A DNA stretch of 64,000 nt. Source: Bryum argenteum. Taxonomy: Eukaryota > Streptophyta > Bryopsida > Bryales > Bryaceae. The stretch spans positions 13,823,758 through 13,887,757 of the forward strand of contig CM073323.1 in assembly GCA_037043015.1 (NCBI GenBank), written 5' to 3'. A model generated the notes under the pieces. It made no database searches, was not told the DNA's origin, and was given only the letters and a program-made list of their open reading frames with translations. The position numbers and the translations under genes were made by a program. Shown here in pieces: positions 3,982-48,050 of the stretch (the stretch's first letter is position 1; each line of letters opens with the position of its first letter).

Positions 3982-4260
3982 GGAATGAGGCATGATGTGG
4001 TGGAAAGTCACAACTTATGGTCAAAATTTAGTATTTTTCTTTCTTCTATGCTCATTTCATTGTTTGTATATGGTAAATAATACGGACTGCTTATATTAAC
4101 TTTTATACATATTTATGTACTCATTATGCTAAAAGTGTCAAGTTAAACTTAATTGTTAACTAGGATATCAAGAATCATAAATGAATATATGAGTTTCTAT
4201 TTTTTCAAACTATAATTTCAGTCACAAAGTAGTCATATAATCTGCAAATTTGAATTGTTA

Positions 4261-4266
<6 letters not shown>

Positions 4267-4333
<67 letters not shown>
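4267..4333. repeat. (TA)n microsatellite
   Basis: Uninterrupted TA dinucleotide run of about 66 bp in intergenic sequence. Confidence 0.95.
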
Positions 4334-4335
<2 letters not shown>

Positions 4336-4464
4336 TTTACAGTATTTTATTCCATTTATGTCATTATTTTTATCATTATAATATAATTTTGTTCATATGA
4401 AGGGAATTTTCATTAAATTATGCCACTCTAATCATAGAAGTAGAACTTCTTCTCGGAAGTATAG

Positions 4465-28013: not shown

Positions 28014-28222
28014 AGGCTCCATTGGTCTTAGCTTGGTATTTGAGGCGAGGCTCGTAGCATCCATTGAGATAGTCGTGAGTTCTCGTCTGTGTGTTGGAGT
28101 GTCATTCACAACCATAGTCCACCACCCAACTGTGACGTAGATTCATGAACCTTGTTACATACAAACTCTTGAAAGCTTTTGGAGGAAAAACATGTCCATT
28201 GACTCTCGGACACTAGCCTAGT
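28014..28222 (+). mobile_element. Second SINE copy, 5' part, interrupted by the CACTA element
   Basis: Aligns with the SINE at 4478-4837: 'aggctccattggtcttagcttgg' against its head, 'catagtccaccacccaactgtg' against 'tatagtccacccaactattg', and 'aaccttgttacat' against 'gaccttgttgtat'. Alignment stops at the CACTA insertion point. Sequence at 47964-47985 continues it weakly ('ggctggaaccgaaag' against 'ggctagaaactagcg'). Confidence 0.65.
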
Positions 28223-28400
28223 CACTGGAAACTTTGAGTGGTTTAGCCGGGGCTAAACAGGGGTGGTTTAGCCCCTCCTTTAGCCCCCAGTTGCACTAGT
28301 CGAAAATGGGTGGGGGGCTAAATTTTTTAGCCCCTTTTTTGTACCACTAGCCGGGGCTAAACTTGGGTTTAGCCATGGTTATAAATATGATTTAACCCCG
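28223..28400. repeat. CACTA left terminus with GGGGCTAAA repeats
   Basis: Multiple direct and inverted copies of 'ggggctaaa' / 'tttagcccc' follow the CACT terminus, mirrored at 47866-47963. Confidence 0.7.
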
Positions 28401-28439
28401 GATAAATTGTTTTTTTGATTGGTTAGCTTTTGCCCTGAA

Positions 28440-28645
28440 AATGTTATCCACGTGGATGGTTGGATGACTTATTATGCCGTGTCACGGATGAGATTTGGAT
28501 GAATGAATTAGTGTGACGTGTCATGGATGATACTTGAATGGATGATTTAGTGTGATGTGTCATGGATGATACTTGAATGGATGATTTAGTGTGATGTGTC
28601 ACGGATGATATTTGGATGGATGATAACACATGAATGGATGAATGT
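28440..28645. repeat. Subterminal tandem repeat, about 52-bp unit
   Basis: About four units containing 'gatgatttagtgtgatgtgtca' and 'tggatgatacttgaatgga'. Position just inside the left terminus suits transposase-binding subterminal repeats of a CACTA element. The antisense ORF is a repeat artefact. Confidence 0.8.
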
Positions 28646-29033
28646 TAACAATGCACGGAGCATGGTATATGCAAAAAATATGCACGGAGCATGGTACGTA
28701 TATTAATTGAATCGATTTACAAAATAGATATGCACGCTATGCTGCATTGCTCCTCTTCCTGGACGAAGTTGCAGATTGCTTCTGTCGTTCGGCTTTCCTC
28801 CTTCGGACCAACCAACAACTGCTCTTCCTCTTCCTGCAATTTCCACACAAACCCCACTAACAACATTATCGTCAATTAACAAACTTTCCAGCATATCAGT
28901 GTCCCTCAATGCTTGCATGTCCACACTGGAGGAGATCATTGTGCTTATTGTAACATTAACGCCCAATAACAATAAGCCTCATGAAATTGAAACAATTTTA
29001 ATAAGATCGTTCGAGATTTGAAGTGAGTCTTAC

Positions 29034-30244
29034 ATGTTATGAGCCTCGGAGCCACCATACTGAAGTGCAAGTGAATCGCCCATGTTCTGGTACATGTCCA
29101 TAAGAGCAGCAACAACGCCACAATCAGAATCCAGTTTGGGAATATTTGGAAGTCCCACGGCCTGCAGTTGCCGACTCAGGGCTTCAAGGCCGTAAGCATA
29201 CTGGGCTACATTGGTCCTGTCAAGGCAATCGATGCAGTTCGTTCGGAGCACGCCGTTCTGGAAGAATTGCTCACTGGCCTTGTCGATCACTGGCTCCTTC
29301 TTCTCCACCTACAGCCACATTTTATCAAATCAACACAGTCTCAATCAGATGTTAGTTTCCATAAAGTCCTTCAATTATACTGACTTTTTATTATTATGAA
29401 TGGATACGATATGCTTGCCTTAAGGATGATCATGATATTGAAATGTCTTGAAACGGTTGCTGAAATTGTGGGCTGGAAAAGGAATGTAACCATACCTCTT
29501 GGAAGATGAGCCTGGCGTTCATGGAGGTGTTCCCGGCCGCGGAGTCTAAGAGTTTGCCGAGGTCGAGAGAGAGTTGCCGACTGCCGAGGTCTAGTGCTAG
29601 TCGCCGGTCTGATGATAATCCAGTGACATTGTCCTGTCTCTCAATGGCGAGAGCCTCGACCCTGTTGGAATCCTGCTCAGACATTCATGAAATGATTCTC
29701 TGGAAATGAAATTTTCCGAAGCTCAGGCAGTATATAAATTCAGGCATGGTTCTTCAGGTTGCGCAAATAACAATACTCGTCGTATTGAGATTTTTTGAAA
29801 ACAACTCCAGTTTCAGCAATAGGAAAGAAGGAAAGATGGTGGATTGCGGAGTAGAAGACTCCTACAGCTTATGTAACTTGTGGCAAGAATAAGCAGCATA
29901 ATGGTTACGAGTTGGCCCAATATTAACTCTATATCAAACTGGCACGCACCAAAAACAGAGCGCACCTATGTGTGTTTCTCTAGAAAATTTCATATGGACA
30001 GTATCATGGTGCATTATTATGACCGACTTAATTTCTGTTCGTTGTTTTTTCAAAACAGCAACGTTGGAAATGTGATAATGGAGGTAATTTCGAGGAGGTA
30101 GGGGTGGTACCTTTTTGCGAATTTGTGGAAATCCCAGTGAATGAATTTGAGTCTCCGTTCCTCATGGTAGATTTGATTCAGGTACCCCACTGCAATAGCG
30201 AATTCTCGCCGCAACATCATTTCACGAGGACGCTTCTCCACTGT
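29034..30244 (-). pseudogene. Captured fragment of a plant SAC-domain phosphoinositide phosphatase
   Basis: SAC proteins dephosphorylate phosphoinositides at endomembranes. Three exon-like blocks are visible. Block 1, about 30109-30244, follows an AG acceptor and contains REMMLRREFAIAVGYLN then FIHWDFHKFAKR. Block 2 spans about 29498-29672 and is a charged linker. Block 3, 29034-29308, contains GVLRTNCIDCLDRTNVAQYA, which includes the catalytic CX5R(T/S) signature CIDCLDRT, then AALMDMYQNMGD and QYGGSEAHN, ending at a GTAAG donor. The segment normally between blocks 1 and 2 ('...GFYYSGKP') is missing, as are the N-terminal SAC half and everything after 'HN'. It is therefore an internal gene piece. 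It lies directly downstream of the CCR-like fragment on the same strand inside the CACTA element, which supports capture. The catalytic motif is intact, but the domain as a whole cannot fold normally. Confidence 0.8.
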
Positions 30245-30538
30245 CTGCCAACAAAACCAAGGTGTACATGTTTCAAACGGGAAACGAAAGCTCAATTGAA
30301 ATGATACACCATCATGAGTTAAGGACTCGAAAAGGACTTACAACAGTCGATTCTAATGTGAACAACAACAACTCATTGATAATAAATACACTAAAACGTA
30401 CTAAATCAGAGAAGAAGCCTGGGGAACCTGCAGGGCACAAGCTACAAGTTCTCGTTAAAAAAACACCCAATCGTAGCTTTGCAACCTGTAGATCCTGCTA
30501 TAAAAAAGGATGGAAAAGCCCCAGCAGAGAGTTCTCGA

Positions 30539-32405
30539 TCACCCTTTCAGAGTTTCATAATTGAGCATAACGGTGAAGGGAATGCGCCGCACGAACCTGG
30601 CCTCAACTTTGTAGTTGGGAAACAGCTTCCGCAATACGGCAGCGAGGTCTGCTAAATGCAGGGTGCTCTCGGAGACAATGTATCGGCCGTGCGCTTCGGG
30701 CTTCTCGTACGCCAGGATGTGTGCCATGGCGCAATCCTTCACGCTGATCCAACCTCGTACTACATTCGGGATGGTCTTCAGTTCCCCTGCATGCATCAAA
30801 GTTCGGTTTCAGGCTTCGAATCTGAGGAAAATCAACAAAACTTTCAGCGAATTTGTTACAGTACTGGAAAGAAAGTCCAGCGGAAACGAATTCGTGGAAT
30901 TCACGGTGTTCTGTAACATAGGACCCATCACCATAAATGGGTTGATGGACACCATATTCAAGTTTTTGTGCTTGTATACGAAGTCCCATGCTGTCTTCTC
31001 TGCATATGTCTTGCTAAGAACGTAGGACTTGAAATCATCACCCTGTTACAAAAAAAACCCATTTTCTTTAAATACCATGACTAATAGCTGTAATTAAGAT
31101 AGATCTGAGTTGTTTAAAACATCTGAGTCGTAGTAGAGCTAGAAGTCGTGAAGGACACAAATTTCATGAGTTTCTTGTCACAGTTGGGTGTGTACACACA
31201 CCATGTAAGGAATGTTACGAATGACGTCAGGGTCATTGAAGAAGGTTTCATCGATGACACTGTCTGGAGTGAGTTTCTTTGCAAAGTGCACGGCCGCCAT
31301 TGACGAAGTGAGCACCAGTCGCTTCAGTGGGCGTTTCAGCTTGGCGCATGATTCCAGCACATTTAACGTGCCCTTCACTGCTGTAAGTTTCTATGTAACC
31401 TGCCTGAAGAACCCATCCATCCACATCCACAAGTTAGATAATAGCCATGCATAGAATCATCTCAAGATCTATGGTGCTTACACTCTTCATGAAATCTAGT
31501 TGAAATTTCATACTAAACAAATGCTCTTACTCTTTATGAAATAATTGTGAGCGGTGACCATATTGATAATTATGTGGTGTATGATTTACAAGTGCTGTAT
31601 CATGTGTCTAGATATTGCCAGTTATCAATGGAGATCCATCTAGTAATCATATATACCAGAGAGAGTTTCGTGTTAGTAAGCATGCACTAAAGTAAAGTTC
31701 ATGTGCACCAGTATTGGTACTCAATGAAGGTCCATTTCGTGTAGCTCTCGTTTTTACGACGAGCAACGATGGATGTTATAAACAGTGTCTACAGCTTTGT
31801 GTTGGAAATGAATGTTGATGAGTCCATACTTCCGACATAGAAGCAGCGTCGTAGGCTCCAGGTGTTGGTGTCGAAGTGTGGAAGACACCATCGCAACCCT
31901 CAAAGATGGTATCGAAGACGCCAGGTGTGCAGATGTCGGCTGCTATCAACTGGAGTCGTTCATCGGCGCCCGGAAGTGCAAGCAAGTGCTTCGCAATCCC
32001 TGTACATGAGCAAACGATCACACAAGACGACTGCGACATTCAATCAAAGCAGTGCCACACCGTAAACAGAAACAGGATCCTCGGACGTCAAGTCTGTACA
32101 GTCATACTTCCATATTGACAGGTTATGAGAGGCAGACCATGCACCGACTACATACAATCACATGCAATAAAATACATGACACATACTTGTCATAGGTTTC
32201 TACTAGAGCTACAATTAAGACTAAGAATGACTGTGACTGTTTGGATGTTACAACAGCCGCTTGATCGACCGACAAACAGTCACTCACCTGGGTTCCGCAC
32301 TGTGCCCTTTACATGATAGTCTTTCTCTAGCAGCATCTTCACAATCCATGAGGCTATGAAGCCTGAGGCCCCAGTTACGCACACCGTTTCTGCGATCGAC
32401 GCCAT
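30539..32405 (-). pseudogene. Captured CCR/DFR-like NAD(P)H reductase, five exons, 3' exon missing
   Basis: Short-chain reductase of the extended SDR type related to cinnamoyl-CoA and dihydroflavonol reductases. Exon blocks by eye: 32288-32405 starts [20 protein letters not shown], the TGxxGF NAD(P)-binding loop. 31830-31999 contains [12 protein letters not shown]; its junction with exon 1 is in phase. 31202-31380 contains [12 protein letters not shown] with the catalytic Ser region. 30842-31042 contains [10 protein letters not shown], the catalytic YxxxK. 30539-30786 contains IPNVVRGWISVKDCAMAHIL. Phases do not join cleanly at exon 2/3 and exon 4/5, so a mini-exon is missed or the gene is decaying. 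The final exon (about 25-30 residues in the family) is absent: the frame stops right after NYETLKG. It lies inside the CACTA element, upstream of the SAC piece. A recently disabled host gene is the alternative. Confidence 0.8.
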
Positions 32406-32676
32406 GATATGAAAACTTCGAAGAATGTGCAAAGGAATTAACTTGAGTTCGCCGGTAATTGCACGCTTGAGTGACCCAATCAGAATGACCAGTTGTGTGT
32501 ATGAATGTACATATATGAATGTATGTATGTGTTTAAGAACGGGTTCCTAGCAGGTTCTGAGGAAAGAAAATACAAAAATATGTCACATATCTAGCATCAT
32601 CAGATTGCAAAACTAAAAAAAACTCAACAATGTTCAGACCGAAACACTACCAGAACATCATCGACTCCTGACTTAC

Positions 32677-32784
32677 AGCAGATGTCTCCAGCCTCGACCA
32701 CGTCAGCTGGGACGCGAGCAAAAGTCTCATACTCGAATAACTCGTTGATGTTCGCATTCCTGCAGCGGTCGTCCGGGTGCAGAC
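32677..32784 (-). pseudogene. Captured exon of a TypA/BipA translational GTPase
   Basis: A single exon-like block with AG before 32784 and a GTAAGT donor after 32677. It encodes ...NANINELFEYETFARVPADV then VEAGDIC. This matches the domain-II region of TypA/BipA ('I.ELF.y..f.RVpv..v.AGDIC'), a ribosome-associated GTPase found in chloroplasts and bacteria. No G-domain or C-terminal part of TypA is nearby, so it is an isolated exon. Confidence 0.65.
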
Positions 32785-32936
32785 CTGTGTTCTCACAATT
32801 GAACAACAAAATTACATCAGAAAAGAAAAGAAAAGAACCTACTGATGTAGAACTCTAATACTCACTGACAATGCAATTACGCCTGTTATCAGGAAGCAAG
32901 CATACAACGACCCCTGTAAGTCCAAAACTACCCAAG

Positions 32937-33119
32937 TCAATCTTCAGAGTTAAATTTCAGGTGCCGACAGTGAACATCACGACATACAATTATACTCACA
33001 GAGCAGACTGAGATGACCCTTGAGGTTAGATTTCCACTTTTGATTGCTGAGACCCCACCGGACCAGCTCCTGCTTGACCCAAAACCTAAGCCTGGACATC
33101 CCACAGAAGCCACTTTCAA
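32937..33119 (-). other. Exon-like stretch of unknown origin
   Basis: One minus-strand frame reads FWVKQELVRWGLSNQKWKSN, another is a 60-codon open frame. It looks exon-like (composition, balanced codons) but I do not recognise the protein. It lies between the TypA exon and the 293-codon ORF. Confidence 0.25.
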
Positions 33120-33240
33120 TCTTAATTCACAGTGATAATGCTAAAACAATACTTTGGACACAACACATAGATTGCAAGGTAAGCACGAAAAAATTGAAAT
33201 TGTTAAAAATATGAAGGCAAGTGTCATTGCAAACTCACCT

Positions 33241-34122
33241 TTAGTCACTCTCATTTCTTCTGGCACGTAAATATGCGGCCACGAGTTCTAGCCTCAAAGT
33301 AACATCCATCTCTCTAATTTCTCGCTGATTAGGGAACGGTTTAGGACTTTCTAGGGCGTTCTTTTGAATCATGAATGTTAGTAATTGAGCGTACATTTCA
33401 TCAATGTCGCACAACTCCATTGCTTTTAACACAAAGGACTCATTATCTTCCTCAACATCTTCTTCTACAAGACCCTCTAACAATAAGGGGGCCTCTTGAT
33501 CAGACTGCTCACGGAACTGACCAGAATCAGAGGACTCGGGCACCTCACCTCTCCTTCTCTCTATACGTCTCTGTTTCTGCCTCAAGTATTTCAAATGTTT
33601 CCTAATGTGTTCGTAAATGTTGTTTTTAGCCCATTTATATGCCTCTCCTCTACCTTGAAATTTCAGTTCTTGTAATTTATCAATATTCTCGTCTATTATT
33701 GTATTTAAAGATTCTCTAATTCCTATGTCTTCTAAATTAAATGTTCCATTCGGAAGGACCCCTCTATCTTGTGCGTTAGTTATCCATTTTTTAACTTCTT
33801 TGTAATTAGATTTTAGATTAGTATGTTGAATGGACCAATTTGTTCTTAATGATAATTTTCCATACATTTTGTTAGAACGCCTATTTTTTAAAGGCGGAGG
33901 GTTAAAAATTCTATTGTAAGACGGAGCCTTTAAGTTAGGATTGACATTTTCTGACTCTACGTAAAGAGGGCCTCTAAAATCTAGATTAGTGTTGATTGAG
34001 ACTCCCTCCTGTCCCTCATAATCCTCTCTAGCCATTTGACACTTAATACAAAAATTAGCAGTTTCATTTGTAAACGTGAAACCACACCTAGCACAAAAAC
34101 GCCCTCTTGCCATGTTGTACAA
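33241..34122 (-). CDS. Intact 293-residue protein of unknown function inside the CACTA element
   Basis: Uninterrupted frame starting MYNMARGRFCARCGFTF; an alternative Met is at residue 4. The N-terminus has paired cysteines, CARC...CIKC (about residues 10-30), resembling a small zinc ribbon. The middle is basic and helical, with clusters such as RQKQRRIERRRGE (about 181-193) that could bind nucleic acid. The acidic stretch LLLEGLVEEDVEEDNES follows. The C-terminus is helical and charged. I recognise no family. It sits inside the element, downstream of the transposase on the same strand, while the transposase is broken. CACTA elements usually encode a second, poorly conserved DNA-binding protein (TnpA in En/Spm), and the position and features would suit that role, but this is inference. 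It could also belong to another nested element. Confidence 0.6.
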   Translation of the reverse strand: MYNMARGRFCARCGFTFTNETANFCIKCQMAREDYEGQEGVSINTNLDFRGPLYVESENVNPNLKAPSYNRIFNPPPLKNRRSNKMYGKLSLRTNWSIQHTNLKSNYKEVKKWITNAQDRGVLPNGTFNLEDIGIRESLNTIIDENIDKLQELKFQGRGEAYKWAKNNIYEHIRKHLKYLRQKQRRIERRRGEVPESSDSGQFREQSDQEAPLLLEGLVEEDVEEDNESFVLKAMELCDIDEMYAQLLTFMIQKNALESPKPFPNQREIREMDVTLRLELVAAYLRARRNESD

Positions 34123-34493
34123 TCACCTATACATAAACAACAAAATTTATACTTTAATCAATGTACAACAATGAATATTTATATTATTGTACAAGAAATT
34201 TAACTCTGGTCTACCAAACCTAAAGACATCAAGATGTGTAGGGCACTTACTTCACGCTGGCCAAGAATTATCCTAGAGATAGTACTCAACCACAACCTCT
34301 TCTGAAAAGCCTGTAAGACGGCAAGAGAATTTGGTTAACATCTACTCTTGTAGATGTCCAAACTCTATACATTAATAGCACAAGCAACTCTAGTCATATA
34401 TAAGCACCACAGATTTAGGTTGCAGAAAAAAAAAATTAAAAAAAAAATTAAAAATACCAGTTAAATCTTCAGCCCACTGTAAAGATGCATTAC

Positions 34494-34593
34494 CTTCCTG
34501 CTTGAAAAACTTCTCGCCTGACTTCAAGTTCCTTGGCGAAAGCTATTTCAGTAGGTTTTTGCTCCCTGACTGACGTAGTAAGGTCGATGAGAT
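34494..34593 (-). other. Exon-like block, unidentified
   Basis: AG acceptor before 34593 and a GTAATG donor after 34494 bracket an open minus-strand frame reading DLIDLTTSVREQKPTEIAFA then KELEVRREVFQAGR. The amphipathic, charged sequence looks like genuine coding DNA. Possibly another captured exon, perhaps from the same parent as the 35-kb block. Confidence 0.35.
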
Positions 34594-35137
34594 CTGCAAC
34601 ATTCCGAGAAAAAATACAGGCAGTTCGTTGTCAAAAGGATGGGTAGAGCATAGTGCTGTCATCAAGGCGAAGAACAAAACAGAAGATGGAGCCACCGTAG
34701 TTGACTATTTTGAACTGCTGAAAAACTATCTGTTAGGGGAATTCATTCTAATCGTAGGCTGCAAACCAACTGAACCATGCGGAGGGTTTAGAAGGATTAC
34801 CAGGCTGAATCAGAATATCATACAAGCGCACTAGCTCGTCCAATTTTCATCAAAACATCAGATTATTCTTTATACATTTTCACCTAAGTTTCGCCCGCAG
34901 CAAGACAATGATAATAAAAAATTAACGCAACCAGCAACTTTTCTGCATGTTGCATCACTACCTTTAATGATACCTCACATTTTCTACAGATGAATGCTAT
35001 CCCGGAGATTACCAAGCTCTGAAACCTCACCCTTCAAATTCATAACGCTATCACGAGTGACCTTCCTCGAGTACAAGACAATCCATTTAAGTTTCCTCAA
35101 AATCAGAACAAAAATAAACGCACCTTCGTAGCAGCCC

Positions 35138-35700
35138 TCATATTTCAAAACCTATAGAGTCGCCAGACCTTAACTTCTCTGCTTCTTCAAGCTTTTGAAA
35201 TAATACAGAGGTCTCGGGCTCCTGTGACTTCTTCTTCGCTGATGCTCTTCTCTTGGGAGGTGCTGGTTCTTCTCCAACATCCGGAGGTGATTTCTTCGTT
35301 GTTGCTGATACCCGCTTCGAAGCCTGAGATGATGCTTCTTCGATCTCAGTCGACGACGACGACGACTTGGGCGAACGTGACTTCTTTGGCTTCGGAGGTG
35401 TTGGCTGTTCCCCCTCTGATACTTGAAGAGTGGGAGACTTGAGTGAACGAGGTGCCTTCTTCGGTGCTGGTACACTCTCAAAAGAAGTTGACTGTTCAGC
35501 CTCTGCTACTTCAGGACTTGACTTCTTTCTTGTTGATGGTGATGCTCTCTTTCGTGGAGTTGGAATTTTGTTCGAGTTGCACACCGTCTGATGGTGACGG
35601 AGTAGTAGACTTGGGGGATTTAGAAGCAGACTTGCAAGCTTTCCGTGGCTTCGGGGATGGTATTTCCTCACAAGATACAGATAAGTCCAAATCCAAACTC
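35138..35700 (-). pseudogene. Captured S/P/K-rich gene fragment, PDS5-like (tentative), frameshifted
   Basis: A minus-strand frame starts ...LDLDLSVSCEEIPSPKPRKA, then shifts by one base near 35570 into IPTPRKRASPSTRKKSSPEV and continues with repeated SPK/SSP units to EKLRSGDSIGFEI. Low-complexity Ser-Pro-Lys linkers followed by a Tudor-like start occur in plant PDS5-type cohesion factors. After a stop or splice near 35138, frames reading KYEGCYEGA and later KWIVLYSRKVTRDSVMNLKG resemble broken Tudor strands. The parent identity is a guess: low-complexity sequence resembles many nuclear proteins. The frameshift shows the copy is not functional as read. Confidence 0.4.
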
Positions 35701-36105
35701 GTCCGGATCTCAGTTGCAGAGTCGCTAGGAGCTAATTACTGTCAACTCTACTTCTTCTTAGTCTTTTATATTGCTCGGAGCAGCTCGTGTAACACACTCG
35801 GCCGTAACACATCATCATCTAGACTGCTCTTTGGAACGTGCCATGAGCCTTTTCAGATTCCTGATTCATGCAGGTGAAAACAACCACATCAAAAATTTGC
35901 ACTCTATTGTCCAATCCAAATCACGATATTTTCCGAAGCATTACAAAGAGTCGATGACCAGAAGTGAGGACCTCTACAGGACGCAGCACAAGCAACAGGC
36001 TGAAAGTAACATGATCTAGAAACATAGTGCATCTATATGTTCAATAAATGCTCAAAGACCAACTCATTCTAGGCAAATCAACACTGAAAGGGATAGATAT
36101 TGTAC

Positions 36106-36174
36106 CTGAATCACAGTAGTATAAGGTGGGGGCATATGAAAAGTGAGGCCGTCCTGGTTGATCGTGTACCGGAC
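36106..36174 (-). other. Exon-like block, 23 codons, unidentified
   Basis: Clean AG acceptor (TTTCAG before 36174) and donor (GTACAA after 36106) flank an in-frame 23-codon exon reading YTINQDGLTFHMPPPYTTVI. I do not recognise the parent gene. It lies on the same strand as the other captured pieces. Confidence 0.35.
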
Positions 36175-36882
36175 CTGAAAAGCATAAGTCAAAATGGGCC
36201 CATATATAAGTAATAACATAACAGACGAATGCGATTTCAGTACTAGTGTTGAAATTTAGACACGATGTCGGAGCCACGAATCTAGTAAGCTAAAGCACGG
36301 CTGACATGGCAGCATCAAGGTTTACCCTTTATCCAGAGAAATGAGCTCTTGCTTCACATGAGCTTACTCAACCACAGCCTTTTCTCTTCTCCCTCGGAGT
36401 ACCATACTAATACTTTCTCATCCTGCGCACAGTTCCCCCATATAGATATGCGGATACAACAGGAACGACTTAACACTACAGATATTTGTGGACCTATCCC
36501 AAACTTCTGAACAATAATTTAACATTCTCAACCTTACCTAGAATGATTGGGTGCTGCAGCCCTTGCAAGCAAATACTACCGCCTTGTACTCCCTTAATAA
36601 CACGGACTACTGCAATTTGAACCTCACAGCTGGAAACTAGGTACCAAAGATACTGGTTACCAACCCCAGAAACCGCTTCATCTTGTAGGGTTTGTGAATT
36701 ATGGAGGGGTCATTTCAAAGGCAGAATGCTGAGAAATGCCCGGTTTCCAACTTACATTACAATCTAAGTCTGTACACAACCTGCTTCAGAATTCAGATGG
36801 GTGGAAATTCATTGGCGGTAAGAGCTCGTTTGATTTTCTAACCTAAATTTCAAAACAAAAAACAGGAATGAGAGTACGTTAC

Positions 36883-37061
36883 CTAGTAAGGCGGTGTTCT
36901 TAATGTTGAGGGCACCCTCAACATACACATGCAAGTCCCCGTGAGGCAGTTTGGAGTTCAGAATCTCCGCACACGCGTAGCAGCAGCTCAGTCGATCATC
37001 CTCAAGCCCCAACACTCTCACATGAATTCTCGGAAACCGCCTTCCACCAGAAGCTATTCAC
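36883..37061 (-). other. Exon-like block, unidentified
   Basis: AG acceptor before 37061 and GTAACG donor after 36883. The frame reads RIHVRVLGLEDDRLSCCYAC then AEILNSKLPHGDLHVYVEGA, a globular-looking sequence. I do not recognise the family. A further exon-like stretch ending at a GTGAGT donor lies at about 37255-37405. Confidence 0.4.
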
Positions 37062-37419
37062 CTGCAATAACACCATCGTCACATTCTGACCGCCTTCACC
37101 CATATTTAGCACCATTCAGAACCATCGCAAATTGCTCTTGAATCACGGCACAGACCTTCCTAGACCAACTACGAATTCACACTTCAGAACGTGCCTCCTG
37201 CTCCAAAACAATGCCAATCACCAGATCATCACCGCCAGTGACGAGGAATGCCACTCACATGGCGAAACGGATCATTTGCGCCAGTGAGGAGATCGAAGAG
37301 ACCAAAGTGAGTAACTGACATTCGAAATTGAAGCCAACATGCATACTTCCCGAAGCTGTAAGAGGGAGGCATATAGAAGAAAAACTCACAGGGGCAATGG
37401 TAAGCTTGGGGTATCACTT

Positions 37420-37990
37420 TTTGGACACACTAATTAGGTTATTTTTATTGAAAGCCTCCAAAGTTTGTCTAATTTAGTCATTTTAATCAAGTAAAAAGAC
37501 CCTAAAATAGAAAATAAAATATCATGCACCTCACTGAAATCAAAGTATATATGCCTATAGATTTTCTTTTAGATTTTTTATTTTTTTTGGATCCATTCAT
37601 AGATGAGGGAAAAAGTGTTGAATTTGGGGATTTGCAGGCATTATAGTGCACAATGAATTAATTTTTTTATTATCAAATAAATTATTTTGTATTCTATACA
37701 AGAAGATGTAGGTCATATTCAAAAATTATATTAAAATAAAAATGGTTGATATTCCATTTGCTTGATTCTATGGATTTTAGGTTATTGGGACATGACTTAC
37801 TTTTTCAACTAAAAAATCAAATAAAATTACTTCAAAATATTTTTTTTAATTTTTAATTTTTTTTTCCTGATACATTATAAGTATAGACAACTAAAACCAC
37901 ATCTAATGAAGTCTTATTGTATTACAGTTTAAAAATGGATATGTTTGTCACACCAGCATAGAGTGCAATTGTTCATGGGACAACCTTTTT
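37420..37990. other. AT-rich spacer in the CACTA element
   Basis: No exon-like sequence and no repeat; strongly AT-rich. Confidence 0.5.
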
Positions 37991-38017
37991 GGGTACCCCA
38001 ACCAGACCATCACCCAC

Positions 38018-38103
38018 AGAAGAGAGTTTGAATGGACGGAATTTAGGTTTCCCTCGTCGACCGTATTTCAGGAGCTTGGCACCTTTCTTCAGTGCAGTAT
38101 AGC
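38018..38103 (-). pseudogene. Captured PH-domain exon of a PRAF-type (PH/RCC1/FYVE) protein
   Basis: After an AG acceptor the minus-strand frame reads YTALKKGAKLLKYGRRGKPK then FRPFKLSS. This is the diagnostic start of the plant PRAF PH domain ('ALKKGA.LLKYGRrGKPKF.PFrLS'). PRAF proteins combine PH, RCC1 repeats, FYVE and BRX domains. A GT follows at the usual exon boundary; read-through gives a short tail and a stop. No RCC1 or FYVE part is nearby. The Ty3 LTR begins 38 bp away, so the rest of the captured segment may have been displaced or lost. Confidence 0.75.
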
Positions 38104-38140
38104 CTACATCCAGAAAAATGCAACATCATCAAGCCAAGCT

Positions 38141-38626
38141 GTCACGGACATACACAAGAAGTTTCTAGAAGGTTCTTCTAAAATATTCTCTGAAGATTCC
38201 CTAAAAGATTCCTCGAAGATTCCTTGAAGATTCCCTGTGTCACGGCCACGTACTAGGTAGACAACTTAGGAAGGTTCTAGAAGGTTCTAGAAGCTTCCGG
38301 AAACTTCTGGAAGTTCCTGGAAGTCTCTGGAAGTTTTTGGAAGGTCTTTGAAGTTTCCGGAAGGCCTTGGAAGCTTCTGGAAGGTCTTGGAAGTTCTTGG
38401 AAGGTCCTAGAAGGTCCTAGGTTGAGGAAGGTTCTGGAGAACCTTCTTCTTAGCTAGTATATATAGGAGTCGGTGAGGGCAACCTCGGTCTCGACAACGC
38501 ATCTCTTGGAGCTCTAGCTCATCTCTCTTTGTTGTTGTTCGTGTACTCTTCTTGTTAATTCAAGCTCCCCGTCGCTTCTTGTTAGTTTCCACATATTCTT
38601 ATCATCTACATTCCGTGTCCCTGACA
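38141..38626 (+). repeat. 5' LTR of a Ty3/Gypsy retrotransposon (486 bp)
   Basis: Begins TGTCACGG and ends CCCTGACA (5-bp inverted TGTCA/TGACA ends). Internally it has an imperfect tandem run of 10-12-bp units like 'ggaagtttctgg' (38160-38440), then a TATA-like 'agtatatatagg' (about 38455), as expected of U3. A gag gene starts 190 bp downstream. No 3' LTR is present. The adjacent sequence 'gtttgtcgagactacc' does not match the usual initiator-Met primer site. Confidence 0.8.
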
Positions 38627-38814
38627 GTTTGTCGAGACTACCTTCTCACAAATATCAGAGTTAGTCCCTTCTTGTTAGAGAGTGGATTACCCCTCTTCTC
38701 GAAGGTGTGCTAGTGTTTTAGAGGTTGCGGATTACCCTCCTCTAAACCAATATTGTTCTCTTGTCAAATTTTTTCTTTTCTTTCGTAGATTTAGTCAAAG
38801 ATCAAGACGTTAGT

Positions 38815-40228
38815 ATGGCTGAAAATTTGGAATCCAAATTGGACGCCATCATGAGTGCTCTTGCTGCATTATCACATAGACAAGCGGAGATAAAAGGAGC
38901 CATGGCAAGACTTCACAATGACGGAGCATCCGGGATAACATCATCCAGGATTCACCATCCTCAAGCAACTACACCGGAGGAGGCGACTACACCTTTGGTT
39001 CAACAAAACCCAATGATTCAACAACGGAAGGAGCCTAGAGTTAGTCTTCCTGACAAGTTCGACGGAACGCGTTCCAAGTTTCGAGGTTTTGTCAACCAAA
39101 TCAAGTTGATAACAGTTTTACAGCCTGAACGATATCCGACGGAGGAGGCGCGTGTTGGACTTGTTAGAACTCGCTACGGGGGCAAGCTTTGTCGTGGTTT
39201 GCCCCTTGTTCAAAAAAACGATCGCCAATTCTCGAAGCAACTTTGAGACGTTCGCGGAGGCATTTGCGAAGCGTTTGGCGAACATGACAAGGTCCGATGG
39301 GCTACAACAAAGATCCGATCGCTCGACGACAAGGAATGCGCTCTGCATCGCGTCTACGCATCGGATTTTATACAATCAAGCTAGTGACATCAATGGGGCG
39401 AAGAAGCATTGGTGAGTCGGTTTATTGGGGTTTGAGGATGATGTGAAGGACCTACTTTTATCTCTTCCCGATCCGCAAACGCTCAACGAAGCCATTAGCC
39501 AAGCTATAAAGTCGACAACCGTTTATTCCGGCGTCGTCAAGACCAAGCGCCAAAATACCAAACGAGTCGCTACACCACGAGTATGTTGGCAAACAATTTG
39601 AGTTCTCATTCGGAGGAGGCGAAGCCATGCAAATCGACGCGGCGCGTGTCGGAGCTCTTACTCCGAAAGAGAAGAAAAACGGCGTATGGAAGAAGGACTC
39701 TGTTTGTGCTTGCGGAGAAGAAGGCCACAAGGTTAGAAATTGCCCCAAGAAGCGAAACCGGCGCATTGTTAAGACTAGGAGTGCGGTGATCCCGAAAAAA
39801 ACGACGATGCCCGACTACGAGGGAACCATGCGCGGCCGGACGATTCAATGCCACAACAACAATCGGGTTCCTCTTTCTCTCATCAACCCGCCCGTTGTTT
39901 TACAATTCCCTTGTCTCTTGGTCCTCAAAAACACAAAACTTTAGCTCTATTAGATTCGGGAGCATCTACTTGTTTTTTAGATGAAGAATTTGCTAAGCGC
40001 CACAAGATTCGTCTAGTACAGAAGTCCAAACCTGTTAATGTAGAGGTGATAGATGGACGACCTTTATTGTCTGGGAGTGTCACCCATGAATCAATACCTA
40101 TAGAGGTGGCGTTTAAGGACCATAGTAGTTACGTCGTTTTTAATGTCATTAGAACCCCGTCAAACCCTGTCATCCTAGGTCTCTCTTGGTTAGAACAACA
40201 TAACATTTTCATGAAATGGCTTCACTAA
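38815..40228 (+). pseudogene. Ty3/Gypsy gag-protease remnant
   Basis: Structural and protease region of an LTR retrotransposon. Gag starts MAENLESKLDAIMSAL (38815); a coiled N-terminus is followed by the gag core ...LPDKFDGTRSKFRGFVNQIK. Near 39165 the frame shifts, so the conserved continuation lies in another frame, with FAEAFAKRLANM at about 39255-39290. Further shifts lead to a zinc knuckle at about 39705-39745, CACGEEGHKVRNCP. Here the first two Cys are separated by one residue rather than the usual two. A retroviral-type aspartyl protease follows: LALLDSGASTCFLD (active-site DSG) and VILGLSWLEQHN. The sequence stops there: no reverse transcriptase, RNase H or integrase. A 'sushi'/Tcn1-like gag type is suggested by the EEARVGLV region. 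Confidence 0.8.
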
Positions 40229-41132
40229 AATGCAAGTAAGGGAAATCATTGTAGTAGATGGTTCAAAGCTTTCATCAATCATCATTGGAACATCAATAGA
40301 GTTGAATAAGAAAATCATCACATCATCCCAATATAAACAATCAAGTTATAAGGGATTTTATTCAAGATTGAAAACATTTCAAATAAAAAATGTAATACAT
40401 GCAATAATGGCCAATATTGATTTGTATAGGTCATTTGTAAAGCCCATTAACACTGCATGCCATCAATTCCATTGAGGATTACTATGTGCCATATTTACAA
40501 TAATCATTTGTTTTTTCATAATTTGAATATTACTTTAAGCACACAAATGTTGATTTTTGTTGATGAAAGGCATATACATGTTCAAGGTGATGTTTGGCAT
40601 TACCTTACAAGCAATGCACAAGAAGGTTGGCTTCATTCTAAATTGTGCAAATTTTGAAAGCTTTTTAAGAAACTTCGAACAAAACCGAGTCAATGGCTAG
40701 TCTACTTTGACATTTGATATCTTCCGAACCCCAATTCAACTCTACTTCAAACTTTTTAGCATCATGTGATACATTATGCACTACAATTTTTGTTTAGACA
40801 CATTTGAATTTGGCTTACTTATGCTTATGATATGATTTTTTGAATGGAGGTGAGTCATAACTGTACTCGGTTTTGTTTGTCACTGTAGATCAACAATTAA
40901 TAAATAGAAGTTTCAAATTTCATGTTGAAAATTAATACTCAAAAAATCCACACATGGTCCATCTACTGGTCAACATTGAGCTAATCATCAAATTTTGACC
41001 ATATGAGCCATCTCCTTTACTTACAGGTTGTACTGTACCACTTACATTCCATGTAAAAATGTACTAGGCCTATCAGGAATGTATTAGCCCAATAATCAAT
41101 TGGAGTTAATTGCAAAAGTATTAACTCGTTAC
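40229..41132. other. AT-rich sequence between Ty3 remnant and transposase
   Basis: Abrupt change to AT-rich DNA after the protease. Open frames at 40230-40475 and 40457-40657 (plus) show no domain. Probably internal CACTA sequence or the retrotransposon's lost 3' side. Confidence 0.4.
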
Positions 41133-44100
41133 TTACACGTTTATCAATCTATCACGTCTTCTAAGGTCTTGCACTTCATAAGCTATATTTTGAGTCCTGC
41201 CTTGTTTTGGATTTTTTATGTTAATGAACTTGTGCATAATGCATCTTATAGGTCTTATACACATGTCGTCGAATGTAACAAAGAAATTGTTCTTGATCAA
41301 GTTCATTCCGGTGATTGGGTCCACTTTGTCTACCTCCACCCCGTTGACTATTTGTGAATAATTTTGGTAATAGTCAGCAGAGAAGTATACTTCGATTTGC
41401 CCGTTGTGCTCATGGCTAAAAATTTCTCTTATTCTTCCTTTGTACGGGGTCCCGTGTTCTTCATCATTTATTACAACCACATCATCGCCAGCCTTATATA
41501 TCGTTCGTCCCAACATACATCTTTTGTGAAGAAGTACGTGCGGTGGATGTGTGGTTCCTAATCCTCGTACACGATGCCGCAAATAAGACCAGATAACCTG
41601 AGAAGCTTGTACATGTTTGTTGTCAGCTCTACTAATCAATATCCCCTTTCGTTTTGCTGAAATGACACATGCGCAATCATGAGGTGCCTGCATCAGAAAC
41701 TTGAACACATCCAACGCTTTCTTCTTAGAAGTCACATGTAAACAACAATTATGATGCCATGGTGGGCATGGGAAATTGTCGTCGTGATTTTGAACAGTGC
41801 CTTCCGGAAAGAGCATCACATCGTGTACTAGTGCCAATGCCCTCTCAAAACTCTCTAATCCATCACTTTCAATCTGCACACATATTTTCACTTTCTGAAA
41901 CAATCTGCGAGCACAATATCTTATAAATGTTGCTTCCACTAATTTTTGATTTGTCTTGATATTTTGATATTTTTGAACCTCTCTCTCAAATGGAAAGCAC
42001 CAGTACACATCGGGATGACCAAACCGTCTTACATCTTCCAAAATGTCACCCGCTCCTGCTGCATGTTCAAGTGGCCTTCCATTTGGACCATCGAGCGCTT
42101 CTGAATATATATACGCCACTTCTGAAAAAGTAGTTGAACAATATTTAAATCATCTTCTGTCCAACCTTCACTCCTAGTACGGACAAATAAGTAATGTCCA
42201 ATATCTACAAGCAAGCGCCCAACCAAGACCCTTTCATCAGATAATACTCCATCTAGTTTGTTTAGTATGATAGGTAGCATCCAAAGTACGAAATGTTGAT
42301 ATTCTTCGGCAGTATAGCTTTCGTGGTCGTCGACTGGGTCATAAGGCCATTGGCTTTGTTTTAGTTCAGATGGGCGAGCCTCGGAGACATTCTTACAACA
42401 CGTAGTAACCATGTCACATAGAACACGTTGGTTCCGATGTCCTTTGATCTCGGAAAATAATTTCATCGTATAATTCTTGAATAGGTTAAGACCATCGATG
42501 TGCATCAAATCATATACCAAATCTCGCGACAAATCGAATTTATACAAGTGATATAGCCGCCACAATTTTGAATCGCCTGACACGCCTGACTCCATACTAT
42601 GTTGTGTTCTAGCCTCCTTGTCATTTTTTAGTGCTCTCCACTTACGAACACTTTCATGAAGTTCTTTAGCACTTCGTCTCGCAGGTGGATGTCGTACTTG
42701 CAATTCATTATCCCCGTAAATGTATCTTCCATCTGCGTTTTGCGTCGAATTCATTTTGCATCTTCTACATCCCGATTTTCCGGAAGATTTCAAATTTGAA
42801 ATCTTACATTGTGCCGGGTGATCTCCAGTAAGCAACATCAATATAGCTCTAATTTTTGGTGTTCCCGAGTTCCGAAGTATGTTACTAATCCGCCTATTTG
42901 GATAGTTATACTGACAACCAATACCATCTAAGAATAAGTCTTCAAGTTCTTCAACAAAAGGTTGAATGAAAGCAGAAATGTTTTCTTTCATACGCTCTAC
43001 TATATACGCTTCGTGACCTCCCAATGGTATGAATAAAACCGGTAAGAGAGATATGCTTGATGCAGTTCCCGCATTCAATACACTAATTTCCATTGCCCAA
43101 CAACCTCGTCTCTTCTTCCCTGATACGTTGAATCCATCCCAATGCGCGCCTAGAGCTATGTTACGAGGATCCCCTCTTTCAAAAACTCTAGGCGCCTTGA
43201 TAACAGTTTTACACTTCCAACACGTGAAATCATAACATCCTAATTCATTATTCCATCCATGAAGTATTTCATCGCATTTTGTTGGAAATCCATTATATAA
43301 CATCTGACACTTATCATTTGGGCATGTTATTGGCAATTCCCATTGGCTATGTGGATTCCAAAAATCTTGGTATTCCCTCACCTTCTCACCATCCCAAAAG
43401 TGTTTAATTTGTTGGGGTCTTTGCATCGATGATCAACCAATCAAGTCGATTCCGCCACATTGTCAACATTTCATAGCATAAAGATTTTGATTCCATAATG
43501 GATGACAATTGGTTTGCAATCGGGAGGTAATCAAACGCAATCATATCGGTCCTTGCTTTTCCACAATGTGTACAATGTATTGCACTTTCTTCTTCAGCTG
43601 GGGGTAATATAAGTGGCTCGTGAGAATATTCTTTGGTGCCCAAGCACATCCGCCACCGTTTTGGCTCAACCAACCCTCATCTTTTATATAAACCAATCAA
43701 TCGCTTAAAAGAAGACGGTGTTGAAGAAGGTCCTTGAAGATTGCCTGTCCAATCAATAGGCATCTTTCTTATAAGAGCGCCTAGTCCATCTTTATAATTG
43801 AAATCATTTGCGTCGTCATTTGGAATTAGGTGTCCAAATAATTGTTTTAGCATGTAATTTTGCAACTCAATGGACATTCCTTTACTATCCCATACTTCTT
43901 GTACCTCAATTATTTTGTTTTTTAAAATCTCTTGTAAATTATGGAGACGATCATTGATATTTTCTTCTCCTACATCCATTGGAACATGCAAAGATGGTTC
44001 CCCTTCAAATTCAACCTCTTCAGGGATGGGTAAATCTTCATCACTCGAAATATTAGGTTCTGTAGATGCTAGTTGTATATTTATTCGTCTTTGCAAGTTT

Positions 44101-44231
44101 TCTTCAATCCTTTGGTGAGCTTGTTGTGTCCTAAAATCAATCATTTTGTATCCAGGAGCAACACCACGTATAGTAAATCGTCGACATTTTGTACACTCAC
44201 AGCGAACTTTTCTATTACGATGTCTATCCAT
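41133..44231 (-). pseudogene. CACTA (EnSpm) tnp2-like transposase, broken into four frames
   Basis: Catalyses cut-and-paste transposition of CACTA elements in the nucleus. Segment 1, 44231-43677, begins with a Cys cluster, CECTKC, as in the N-terminal domain of these proteins. A TGA at 43677-43679 interrupts it, and the same frame continues to 43404 with CTHCGKARTD. A frame change leads to 43426-42029. This carries the tnp2 core: RNIALGAHWDGFN, GDHPAQCKISNLKSSGKSGC with a following CRRCK, and DLVYDLMHIDGLNLF. A second frame change near 42120 leads to 42119-41133, with DUF4218-like DVYWCFPFEREVQKY and a BAH-like C-terminal tail (GDDVVVIN...VTFDDMCIRPI). Combined length is about that of plant tnp2 proteins. 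The stop and shifts could in part be unrecognised introns, but the overlaps look like frameshifts. Its promoter would face the right terminus. Confidence 0.8.
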
Positions 44232-44999
44232 TTTCCAATTACTAGAGTAAAAGTGTAAAATGAAAGTACCTAATGAAATTGCTAGAGGATCTTATGAGTT
44301 TCAAAAACTATAAACATTAAATGAATATAATATATATTATACATATATGTATACCAAGAAGTTTTTAATTATAAGTTATAAGTAAAAGTATTAAAAATAA
44401 AAGTGAAGTAAAAATAGAGACACTGCTACAAGTTCAACTAAAATACTAAAAATGACAATTGGGGAAGTTTGAGATGGGGAGCTACGGCCAAAATTTCTCT
44501 CATTCAATCCATTTGAGGCTGATTGGTGGATACGTCCTGTAGAGAGGCTCCAAAAATAAAGAAGTAAAAGAATAATAATTTAAAATAAAGTAAATTGTTG
44601 GCAATGATATATTTATGCCTTTTTTGGGTGTAGAAGTTCAGTTTCAATTAATGCAAGGACTTTAACAAAATAAAATTCAAAAAAGAAGAAGAAGAAAAAA
44701 AAAACAATTAAATTCTTAACCCGTAAACGACTACGGCCACCAATGTGGCCTTTTGATATTGATATCAAAAGCGATGTGTGCTTATAGTTTTTTTCATACT
44801 TTTTGAGATTATGGGTGACCTCCTGGGAAGTCCCGGCTCTACTCAAGCTAAAATGTAATCTCTCAAAATCGTGCGGAAAAAATATTCTTGTGTACTTCAT
44901 ACCCTATACAAGCCATGGAAGTAATCCTAGTGCCAAAAAAAATACGTCATCATTATTCAAGAAAAATCATGGTTTCACTAGGACTCCTTGGAGTTTTGA
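44232..44999. other. Upstream flank of the transposase with a lone TTAA-family end
   Basis: AT-rich leader/promoter region of the transposase. At 44716-44735 there is TTAA-CCCGTAAACGACTACG, which resembles the terminus of the 18.6-kb element (CCCCTAAACGACCA). No second end was identified. Confidence 0.45.
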
Positions 45000-47170
45000 A
45001 CACGTGATCAGTACCCTATAAAAAATATAGATTGTGTTTTGGAAGCATGGAGGAAATAAAAATATTTTTCAATAAGTACATAAGTTTAAATAGACTTATC
45101 AAAATGGGGGGCGAATATAGATGTATTTTATAAAATTAATGTAAAGGGGTTTTTATATTTAAAGTAGCTAATAAGAACCCTCTAAAAATTATGGAATCAT
45201 CAAAATAATTTTAGAAAAATCGGAACTATTTTTCCCGAATTACTTTAGATTACCTCTACCAACTAGAACTTTAAATAATTGGTAGAAAATGTAAAGAAGG
45301 TGAGAATAAATATTTTTAAATCTTGGATTAGCTAATTATGACCCTATAAAAATGATGATGATATTTATAAATTTGTGAGAAAGACGCATCTAGATGCTAT
45401 GATTTTCTTGCAAAAGTTTTAGCACATTGGAACTTTGAATAATAGAGGGAAATAAAAAAAATGCGGAAAAAAAAGATTTGTGTAGTTGGACTAGTAAGCT
45501 AATAAGAACCTTATAAAAATGATGGGATCATAAAATAAGTCAAAGGAGTAACGCATCTACGAGCCGTCGTTTACATGGACCCTTCAGAAATTTGAATAAG
45601 GGGGTGATTAAGAAAATGATGGAATGAAAGTGATTCTAATATCTAAAGTAGCTAAATAGGACCATATGAATGTGGTGGAAGTGTTACAAATTCCATAGGA
45701 CAAATGGAACTATGTGTAAAAAAATTCGTGAGTATTCAATAACCCGGCAGAAGTTGAAGTGGGGGAGGAGAGTGCAAATGTGTGGGCAAAAAGGGAGGGA
45801 GAATGGTTTTTGAAGCTTTGCTAGGTAATTCATGTCAAATAAAAATTATAGTGAAAATCTTAGGACAACAAGAGCAAGGGAAGTATTTTTCTCGAATTAC
45901 TTAAGATTAATTAGATTCATGAAAGTAGGGGGTGTATGCAAATGTATTAGAAATTAACCTGGTGGAGGTAGTTGTTAGGTTTACAGAGTAGCCAACAAAG
46001 ACCCTGTATAAATGTTGGAATTATCAAAAACATTTTTGGAAGACCGGAGCTATTTTTCCCGAATTACTATAAAGTGGCGGAAGTGACTAGAACTTTGAAT
46101 AATAGAAGAAATTTAGATAAGAAGGGAGAAAAAATACTTTTAAATCTTATAGCAGCTAACATGTATCTTATGAACATGACGGAATCATAATAAAAATCAT
46201 AGGAGTAACGGAAACATAAGGTCGATTTTACTTGCAAGTATTTTGAACCACTGGAACTTTGAAAATAAGAAAAAAATAGATATGAGTAGGAGTGACATGA
46301 TTTTAACACTTGGATTAGATAATAAGTACCCTATAAAAATTATGGAATCATAAAAAAAATCACAAGAAAATTGCATCTACATGTCATGATTTACTCAACC
46401 CTCCAGATTATTAGGTAAGAATGCGGAGAAGAAAGTAGGTGGGAGAAGGTGGTCTTACAATTTTTTTATAGCTAATTATGATGCTATGAATGTGATGGAA
46501 GTGCTAAGAGTACCATAGGAACATGAGAACCATGCTCAAGTAATTAATCAAGGATATCACAATCCGGCAGGATTGGAAGCCGGGAGGCATGTGCAAATGA
46601 ATGAGCTAGAAAGGTGGGAGAGTGATGTTTACATTTTTCCCAAGTAATTCATACCATATAAAAAATATGGTAAAAATCTTTGGGCCATGGGAAGAAGAGA
46701 ACAATTTTCCCGAATTACCTAAAGTTAATTAGACATGTTCAAATTGGAGGTGTGTGCAGATGTATAAGATGGAAAAGAGATAAGATTGGATTTAGTGTTT
46801 AGATAAGCTAATAAGGACCATATGTCCTTATGACATGTTGGAACCATAAAAAAAGTATAAGAAAGTCGGAGCTATTTTTCCCGAATTAGTTTAGAATGGT
46901 TGAAGCGACCAGAACTTTGAAATATAGAGGGAAAATAGTTAATAGGGGAGAAATAATAATTTTAAATCTTGGACTTGCTAATAAGTAACTTATGAACATG
47001 ATGGAACAAAATAAAAAATCATACGAGTGACGGATCCATATGGTGGATTTTGGTTGCAAGTATTTAGAACCAACAAAACTTTGAAAAATATGAGAAAAAT
47101 AGGTTAAAGGAAGAAGGGGAAGATTTTAACACTTAGACTACCTAATAATGACCCTATGAAAAAAATCTAA
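45000..47170. repeat. Tandem array: ~165-bp monomers in ~821-bp blocks
   Basis: A degenerate monomer containing 'gctaataagnaccctataaaaatgatgg' recurs at about 45010, 45165, 45333, 45498, 45650, 45819, 45988, 46152, 46318, 46471, 46642, 46810, 46977 and 47140, a spacing of 153-171 bp. A second marker, 'tttttcccgaattact', occurs at 45228, 46051 and 46872 (steps of 823 and 821). A related 'cgaattac.taa' variant occurs at 45888 and 46709 (821). So five monomers form a higher-order block repeated about 2.6 times. It lies between the transposase start and the right CACTA terminus. Confidence 0.8.
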
Positions 47171-47399
47171 TAACCTTCTAGAATTGGTCCATATAGAGGA
47201 CTTTGTACATTTCATTTTTACAATCTATCTTTGGTGCCAATTCTTTCTTGGGCACCCCATGTTTCTTGTTCCCGCCACTCGCTACGTCTTTCTATCCTTA
47301 AATTTCTTTTCACTTAGTGCTTCTCCTTTCACGCCGCTTCCACAGTCAAGATTTATGTATAATAAATTATTTGAATAATTTTTTGAGTCACAAAGAGTT

Positions 47400-47564
47400 C
47401 GTTTAAGGCGTGGATATGTTAATAAAGGATGTGAATTGAAGAATAAACTAAAAATAGAAATGATTAAAGTGTGAAAGGGGTATGGGATACTAGCGAGAGT
47501 TTAGGTTTTCAAACTTTGTTTGAAATTTCAGTGTGAAAACGGCTCAGGATATTAGCGGAGTGAG

Positions 47565-47603
<39 letters not shown>

Positions 47604-47850
47604 CGAAAATGTAGTCTGGGACAGTAACGGAAGTTTACATTTCCAAAAAAAACGCAAAAAACGCAGTGTGAACCCCGTTCTGGGGTCCATCGGGAGTTTA
47701 AATTTTTTCAAAAATAAATCGAAACCGGTGTGAAACCGGTTCTACTCTCTATCAAGAGTTTAGATTATCAAAAAAAATTAAACATCCGTGTGAAACCGGT
47801 TTCAGCCGCAAATATCGGAAACAGTGTGAAAGGGGGACCGAGTGGATAAA
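47400..47850. repeat. Right subterminal repeats with GTGTGAA core
   Basis: Direct copies of 'gtgtgaaa(c/g)...' followed by 'atcnagagttta' occur at about 47470, 47531, 47665, 47728, 47789 and 47822, spaced 33-134 bp apart. A poly-A run lies at 47565-47600. This matches the subterminal transposase-binding region typical of CACTA elements. Confidence 0.7.
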
Positions 47851-47963
47851 GTCATAAATTTGCACCCCAGCCAGTCTTCAATATTTAGCCGGGGATAAAG
47901 TCAGAAATTTAGCCCCCCCAGCCAGTTTAGCCCCGGGGGCTAAACGAGTTATAGTTCCCAGTG

Positions 47964-48050
47964 AGTGTCGAGGCTGGAACCGAAAGAGTACTCAATCACA
48001 CTATAGCCTATAGGAACCGAAAGAGTATTCAATCACACTATAGGTGGTAT
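47964..48050. repeat. SINE 3' remnant and a ~36-bp tandem duplication
   Basis: Immediately outside the CACTA end, 'ggctggaaccgaaag' weakly continues SINE copy 2. A unit 'ggaaccgaaagagtactcaatcacactatag' is then present twice (about 47977-48010 and 48015-48046) with one or two differences. Confidence 0.55.

Follow-up and report, generated by a model that had tools for sequence, protein, structure and literature searches.

A CACTA transposon with cargo from several unrelated host loci and its siblings in one plant genome

The stretch of DNA considered here (the window) is a 64,000-bp region, C3:13823758-13887757, of a 258.8-Mb assembly of 25 contigs, and all genome searches were made in this one assembly. 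The window contains a 19,741-bp transposon of the CACTA superfamily (En/Spm-type) at positions 28223 to 47963, which is very probably one CACTA element that carries host cargo from multiple donors and has spread with that cargo as a unit. Comparison with related elements shows that three of the six siblings descend from an ancestor that held pieces of four host genes, located on C9, C3, C7 and C2, as well as a fifth host segment from C3, and that the pieces travelled to new sites as one unit. The window element retains four of these pieces, and its reductase piece is broken.

The Element and Its Siblings

Whole-genome searches with the left and right 200 bp of the window element gave nine and seven matches, respectively, each count including the element itself and each being a lower bound. 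Six of the nine left matches and six of the seven right matches pair in the correct orientation, which delimits six elements of 5.7 to 20.1 kb. These are the window element (19.7 kb, flanked by AGT/AGT), E1 (C1:12111359-12131482, 20.1 kb, ATT/ATA), E2 (C2:5007708-5020072, 12.4 kb, GCC/GCC), E3b (C3:19222105-19230114, 8.0 kb, TCC/TCC), E7 (C7:5568738-5574901, 6.2 kb) and E10 (C10:2909068-2914781, 5.7 kb, CTA/CTA). The 3-bp target-site duplications are perfect in four of the six elements and have one mismatch in E1, while the right end of E7 is eroded. None of the twelve 1-kb flanks of the six elements matches any other. The composite of host pieces, or parts of it, is found at three unrelated sites (the window element, E1 and E2), and homology between these sites stops at the element termini. 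In a multiple alignment the transposase (tnp2) region of the window element is 98% identical to that of E2 and 95% identical to that of E1. The window element is one member of a low-copy family of CACTA cut-and-paste transposons.

Four features of the CACTA superfamily are found in the window element: terminal inverted repeats, a 3-bp duplication, a tnp2-type transposase and subterminal repeats at both ends. The target-site duplication AGT was read from the sequence at 28220 to 28222 and 47964 to 47966. Self-comparison revealed an inverted repeat with termini CACTG/CAGTG that is imperfect and spans about 45 bp, and together with the genome matches to the end sequences it placed the left terminal inverted repeat, which starts CACTGGAAAC, at 28223 to 28265 (plus strand) and the right one, which ends TTCCCAGTG, at 47920 to 47963 (minus strand). 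The left end begins with CACTG in five of the six elements, the window element included, and with CACTA in E1. A repeat search located 4.3 copies of a 39-bp tandem repeat in the left subterminal zone (28457 to 28624). The right subterminal zone has diverged long direct repeats (45004 to 47162) in a region common to all five siblings, in which 45060-46339 and 45881-47162 are 70% alike by self-comparison, and five copies of a short GTGTGAA-type motif at 47.5 to 47.8 kb.

An original prediction, made from the window alone, had proposed a single element that gathered exons from unrelated loci, and the occurrence of the composite at three unrelated sites together with donors on C9, C3, C7 and C2 bears this out. 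The termini of the CACT...AGTG type, the inverted repeat of about 45 bp, the subterminal repeats at both ends and the tnp2-like transposase were likewise described correctly. The predicted span stands as that of an element with its AGT flanks, the element proper lying inside the two duplications. The proposed search for elements with the same ends and 3-bp duplications yielded the six pairs described above, so that the suggested counter-case, in which the two ends would never pair with each other, is not what the genome contains.

The unpaired end matches comprise three left-end relatives, all on C9, and a single short match to the right end on C2. The three relatives on C9 cluster within 22 kb (C9:5992618-6014196) and perhaps belong to another subfamily. 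E1 holds a nested DNA transposon of about 3.8 kb (positions 1534-5305 of the E1 locus sequence), the ends of which recur genome-wide, partly in deletion derivatives that are about 380 bp long. In the window, inverted copies of an 800-bp repeat that are 74% alike flank the element (530-1343 and 56008-56826).

Captured Segments and Their Donors

Comparison of the left part of the element with the genome gave one best donor for each of the segments designated A, C, D and E. The window element and the donors agree at 91-96% of ungapped sites in multiple alignments (88-94% in local BLAST alignments). The alignments continue through introns, and the pieces therefore derive from genomic DNA. The donor gene parts extend beyond the captured stretches. 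All four captured pieces have their coding sense on the minus strand, which is the strand of tnp2, as had been predicted.

Segment A (28944 to 30412, minus strand) consists of exons and introns of a gene for a SAC-domain phosphoinositide phosphatase and contains the stretch RTNCIDCLDRTN. Its donor is at C9:13597940-13599862 (88-89% by BLAST), where a SacI domain is found, and Fig4/SAC1 proteins are matched in PDB. Sequence of the element itself, common to a relative at C2:24399664-24399795, lies between segments A and C (30409 to 30542). Segment C (30522 to 32472, minus strand) encodes a CCR/DFR-like reductase and matches its donor at C3:21460767-21462891 at 88-92%. The segment starts upstream of the ATG and extends about 20 bp beyond the frame of exon 5, and the next exon of the donor is absent. 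With exon borders placed by eye, four inserted bases are found in exon 3 and three in exon 1. A more distant tandem paralog of the donor is located at C3:21452110.

Segment D (32472 to 33006, minus strand) is fused directly to segment C and comprises an exon and introns of a TypA/BipA-like GTPase gene whose donor is at C7:1011222-1011767 (90%). The TypA piece by itself gave no match in PDB, and its identity rests on the donor locus, which has EFTU, domain-2 and EFG_C matches; the donor is presumably TypA specifically. To the right of segment D the element's own sequence resumes (33001 to 33141, common to a relative at C2:24399189-24399329). Segment E (34832 to 36292, minus strand) holds the 3' exons and a downstream part of a gene for PRORP (protein-only RNase P), with its donor at C2:28508407-28509869 (94%). 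The captured piece by itself, a short query, gave weak PDB matches, and its identity likewise rests on the donor locus, where PRORP/PPR domains are found and an open reading frame (ORF) within the captured stretch resembles the C-terminus of PRORP1 (E 0.0012). A donor was thus found for each of the four predicted fragments. The names SAC, CCR-like and TypA stand by virtue of the donor loci, while PRAF, proposed as the fourth donor, is ruled out in favor of PRORP by the donor domains and the match to the PRORP1 C-terminus.

A fifth donor segment, F, was found in E1, where positions 9129-9935 match C3:22420667-22421460 at 94%. E2 has a remnant of about the last 90 bp of this segment. The corresponding site is gone from the window element, along with about 660 bp beside a truncated retrotransposon. 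Segment F is a host segment from C3, possibly part of a gene, and is given no gene name. Identification as a sensor kinase was considered and dropped, as the donor ORF adjoining the captured stretch resembles HisKA only weakly (E 0.073) and PDB yielded nothing useful. The longest frames of segment F are on the minus strand. If segment F is counted, five of five segments are in the transposase sense, for which the one-sided chance is 1 in 32, a value that is suggestive only.

History of the Composite

The composite of segments A, C and D, the element's own sequence and segment E is common to the window element and E1, and the captures are therefore older than the split between these two elements. 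In E1 the left half of segment A is missing, and its place is taken by element sequence together with an inverted piece of the element's own. E2 has parts of the composite; it lacks the region corresponding to 30607-35452, with a clean join, and keeps the first 84 bp of segment C. From these differences the cargo is seen to have been remodelled since E1 and the window element separated.

Junctions and the Route of Capture

That CACTA elements can capture genes is established, but the route by which they do so is debated. The present assembly contains the donors as well as three siblings with cargo and several relatives free of it, and single junctions can therefore be read as before and after. 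The relatives without captures that were used to compare junctions are E3b, a C4 relative and a C2 relative. Comparison with these relatives showed element sequence on both sides of segment A and on both sides of the joined segments C and D. At segment A the relatives carry other element sequence where the window element has donor DNA, and at segments C and D the C2 relative carries 334 bp. The alignments show loss of the element's own sequence at segment A and probable loss at segments C and D. Segments C and D, which come from different chromosomes (C3 and C7), are fused directly; they overlap by 1 bp, and element DNA is absent from the joint.

Six junctions were readable with both parents, and these have microhomologies of 2, 3, 7, 1, 3 and 2 bp, which sum to 18 bp. 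Random breakpoints in the same sequences gave a mean sum of 4.1 bp, and a sum of 18 or more occurred in 3 of 100,000 sets. An analytical estimate for the first five junctions is 4e-5. Microhomology alone is not decisive, as end joining also leaves short matches.

Interrupted repair with template switching is a mechanism familiar from the transposon literature. Breaks within the element, or left by it, would be repaired by copying ectopic templates, and switching of templates at short matches would join successive donor pieces. Such repair would explain both the replacement of the element's own sequence and the direct fusion of two donors. It is held with moderate confidence that the pieces entered the element in this way, by gap repair from ectopic templates with template switching.

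An alternative route has been suggested for the Pack-CACTAs of Arabidopsis, as given in part of the text of a 2026 review (PMC13317346). Two copies of an element would insert near each other on either side of a host gene, and an aberrant excision event would then join them into a hybrid that includes the DNA in between. This route would suit segments A and F, each of which has a single donor and is flanked by element sequence, and short matches at the junctions could arise through end joining. The joint of segments C and D does not fit, however, because these donors are on different chromosomes and have no element DNA between them, and five segments would require repeated rounds of the process. 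This route is considered unlikely for the present element, and the junctions favor template-switching repair, which they appear to fit better than a fusion of two neighboring elements.

Transposition Genes

The tnp2-type transposase gene (41136 to 44291, minus strand) is spread over several frames, with a frame break near 42.1 kb, and was assigned from a match to PF02992 and from its relatives. The match of the window element to PF02992 has an E value of 6.4e-6 and a score of 26.0 bits, which is to be compared with the curated cut-off of 28.6. There are 34 related proteins, several of which match PF02992, and the nearest named transposase relatives are from Riccia and Adiantum. The seed-free host supposed in the original prediction is plausible. 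In E2 tnp2 is an unbroken frame of 801 codons.

A second ORF (33244 to 34122, minus strand) encodes a predicted protein of 293 amino acids that is a candidate TNPA-like accessory protein. Two relatives, with identities of 83% and 69% across the alignment, show that the protein is conserved in other datasets. The protein matched no Pfam family and has CxxC pairs near its start; a structure model with a mean pLDDT of 42.8 was not used. The second ORF is intact in the window element, broken in E1 and deleted from E2.

Because its tnp2 frame is broken, the window element may no longer be mobile by itself. It could be moved with transposase from a sibling; E2 has a long tnp2 frame, but is without the second ORF. 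A more far-reaching and rather improbable scenario is that this CACTA lineage in a seed-free plant acts as a repair-driven maker of gene mosaics. Successive template-switching repairs would have produced an ancestor with five donor segments, all in the transposase sense, which then spread and whose descendants lost complementary functions, one keeping tnp2 and another the second ORF, such that cargo-bearing copies would survive by mutual help.

Fate of the Cargo

For the reductase exons the direction of substitutions was assigned with the tandem paralog at C3:21452110 as outgroup, and gapped sites were dropped. The neutral expectation is about three nonsynonymous (N) changes to one synonymous (S) change. 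In CCR exons 1, 4 and 5 the changes unique to the window element are 6N:2S and those unique to E1 are 18N:3S. In the SAC exons the counts are 5N:0S for the window element and 4N:1S for E2. The TypA piece has 6N:1S, unpolarised, and the PRORP piece has one N and one S change that are common to the window element and E2. To judge from these small counts, the cargo seems to have evolved in a nearly neutral way in its later history.

Older changes in the reductase piece have a different composition. The changes in CCR exons 1, 4 and 5 that are common to the window element and E1 are 3N:5S, and when all five exons are taken the changes found in the window element only are 13N:14S plus one change that would read as a stop if alone. 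Of the SAC changes common to the window element and E2, three of three are synonymous. Either the older CCR changes include those of a constrained donor branch, or the true source of the piece may be a functional paralog that is now lost.

It could be argued from these older changes that selection preserves, or for a long time preserved, the CCR-like piece or other cargo as a working gene or a source of regulatory RNA. The ratio of nonsynonymous to synonymous substitution rates (dN/dS) between the window element and the CCR donor is 0.22, no in-frame stop occurs in 295 codons of the piece when indels are skipped, and the low share of N among the older changes and the transposase sense of the pieces point the same way. 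Set against this are the changes that followed the split, which are mostly N in the CCR exons of both elements, the similarly N-rich counts of the SAC and TypA pieces, the higher dN/dS of 0.57 between E1 and the donor, the four bases inserted in CCR exon 3 and the missing next exon of the donor. Selection on the cargo, past or present, is highly improbable and present function is unlikely; the cargo looks like passenger sequence that is now decaying.

Later Insertions and Losses

About 2.7 kb of the window element consists of two nested insertions that arrived later. One is a non-autonomous element of about 624 bp (37392 to 38015) with imperfect terminal inverted repeats of about 22 bp, for which at least 37 other copies at 98-100% were found among the best 40 of 963 candidates scored. 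These copies mark a recent burst of this small transposon in the genome. The other is the 5' part of a long terminal repeat (LTR) retrotransposon (38140 to 40204, plus strand; 2,065 bp), which has gag and protease, lacks the remainder and is absent from E2. At least 33 other copies reach both of its edges among the best 40 of 550 candidates scored. The LTR fragment stops at the same base as the loss of about 660 bp of CACTA sequence, and these bases are retained in E2. Among the six elements, a low-copy insert of 798 bp (36505 to 37302) is common to the window element and E2 only; it has four other loci in the genome at 85-90%, and the points that flank it nearly adjoin in relatives. Attempts to identify this 798-bp insert reached no assignment. 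The two nested insertions, the second ORF and the break in the tnp2 frame did not figure in the original prediction.

Weight of the Evidence

Several points weigh against the reading of the element and its origin given here. The match of the window element to PF02992, taken alone, falls below the curated cut-off. The left half of segment A differs in E1, which leaves the order and number of steps unsure. The 13N:14S changes found only in the window element raise the possibility, noted above, of a CCR source other than the present donor. Loss of the element's own sequence at segments C and D, where the C2 relative has 334 bp, is only probable, and with the gain of segment F the element gave up no more than about 8 bp, so that replacement is not universal. 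The junctions are read from diverged sequences, a single junction contributes seven of the 18 matching bases, and junction 2 falls in a short repeat of AGAAG. The junction set stops short of the two edges of segment E and of the right-hand edge of segment F, there being no capture-free relative at those places. The mechanism is read from one genome and cannot be proven there. A chance collage of unrelated insertions or segmental duplications between two unrelated CACTA ends, with no single mobile unit, might be suggested by the two foreign insertions within the element and the many repeats in the window, but it has next to no probability and is already refuted by the sibling copies, since the composite or its parts recur on C1 and C2, where the flanks are unrelated and homology goes no further than the termini, and the ends pair in six elements.

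Comparison with Known Systems

Sphagnum is reported to contain 6.8% CACTA sequence (PMC9946827), a figure that, like the other literature comparisons in this section, comes from partial texts of the sources. Among the matches listed in the open-licence literature on moss, bryophyte or Physcomitrella CACTA elements, none was a CACTA element with multi-gene cargo from a seed-free plant. The main text of a paper on Pack-TYPE elements, in the portion at hand, does not mention Physcomitrella, Marchantia or Selaginella (PMC8903248), and the available portion of the 2026 review does not mention moss or bryophyte (PMC13317346).

Pack-CACTAs are defined as non-autonomous elements with no transposase match (PMC8903248). 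The window element resembles them in having CACTA ends around host coding DNA, and differs in having a transposase region at 41.1 to 44.3 kb, so it is not transposase-free. Cactavine-5 of grapevine has two copies with a piece of a host PPR gene downstream of the transposase ORF (PMC2528002). A host gene piece behind the transposase ORF is thus common to both systems, although that of Cactavine-5 is from one donor and antisense, whereas the window element has pieces from four donors, and its ancestor had five segments, in the sense orientation.

The size of the element and the number of donors, which the original prediction took to be unusual, both have precedents in soybean, as far as the partial sources go. 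Earlier soybean CACTA elements are counted as defective deletion derivatives (PMC2613891), and the same source describes Tgmt* as a putative autonomous element of 20.5 kb. Tgmt* is similar to the window element in size, in its 3-bp duplication, in its asymmetric subterminal repeats and in having a tnp2 gene; it also has a poorly conserved DNA-binding product, to which the second ORF is a candidate counterpart. It differs in its ends, which are CACTA rather than CACTG, and multi-gene cargo is not mentioned for it in the part of that source at hand. Tgm-Express1 is a CACTA element of 5.7 kb with five host gene fragments (PMC1947982). Like the window element it belongs to the CACTA superfamily and carries pieces, from exons as well as introns, of several host genes that are unrelated to one another; it differs in its smaller size and flowering-plant host, and the window element still has a tnp2-type gene and a second ORF. 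Host-fragment cargo in CACTA elements is already known from flowering plants, and if the host of the window element is a bryophyte, multi-gene capture by CACTA elements extends outside that group.

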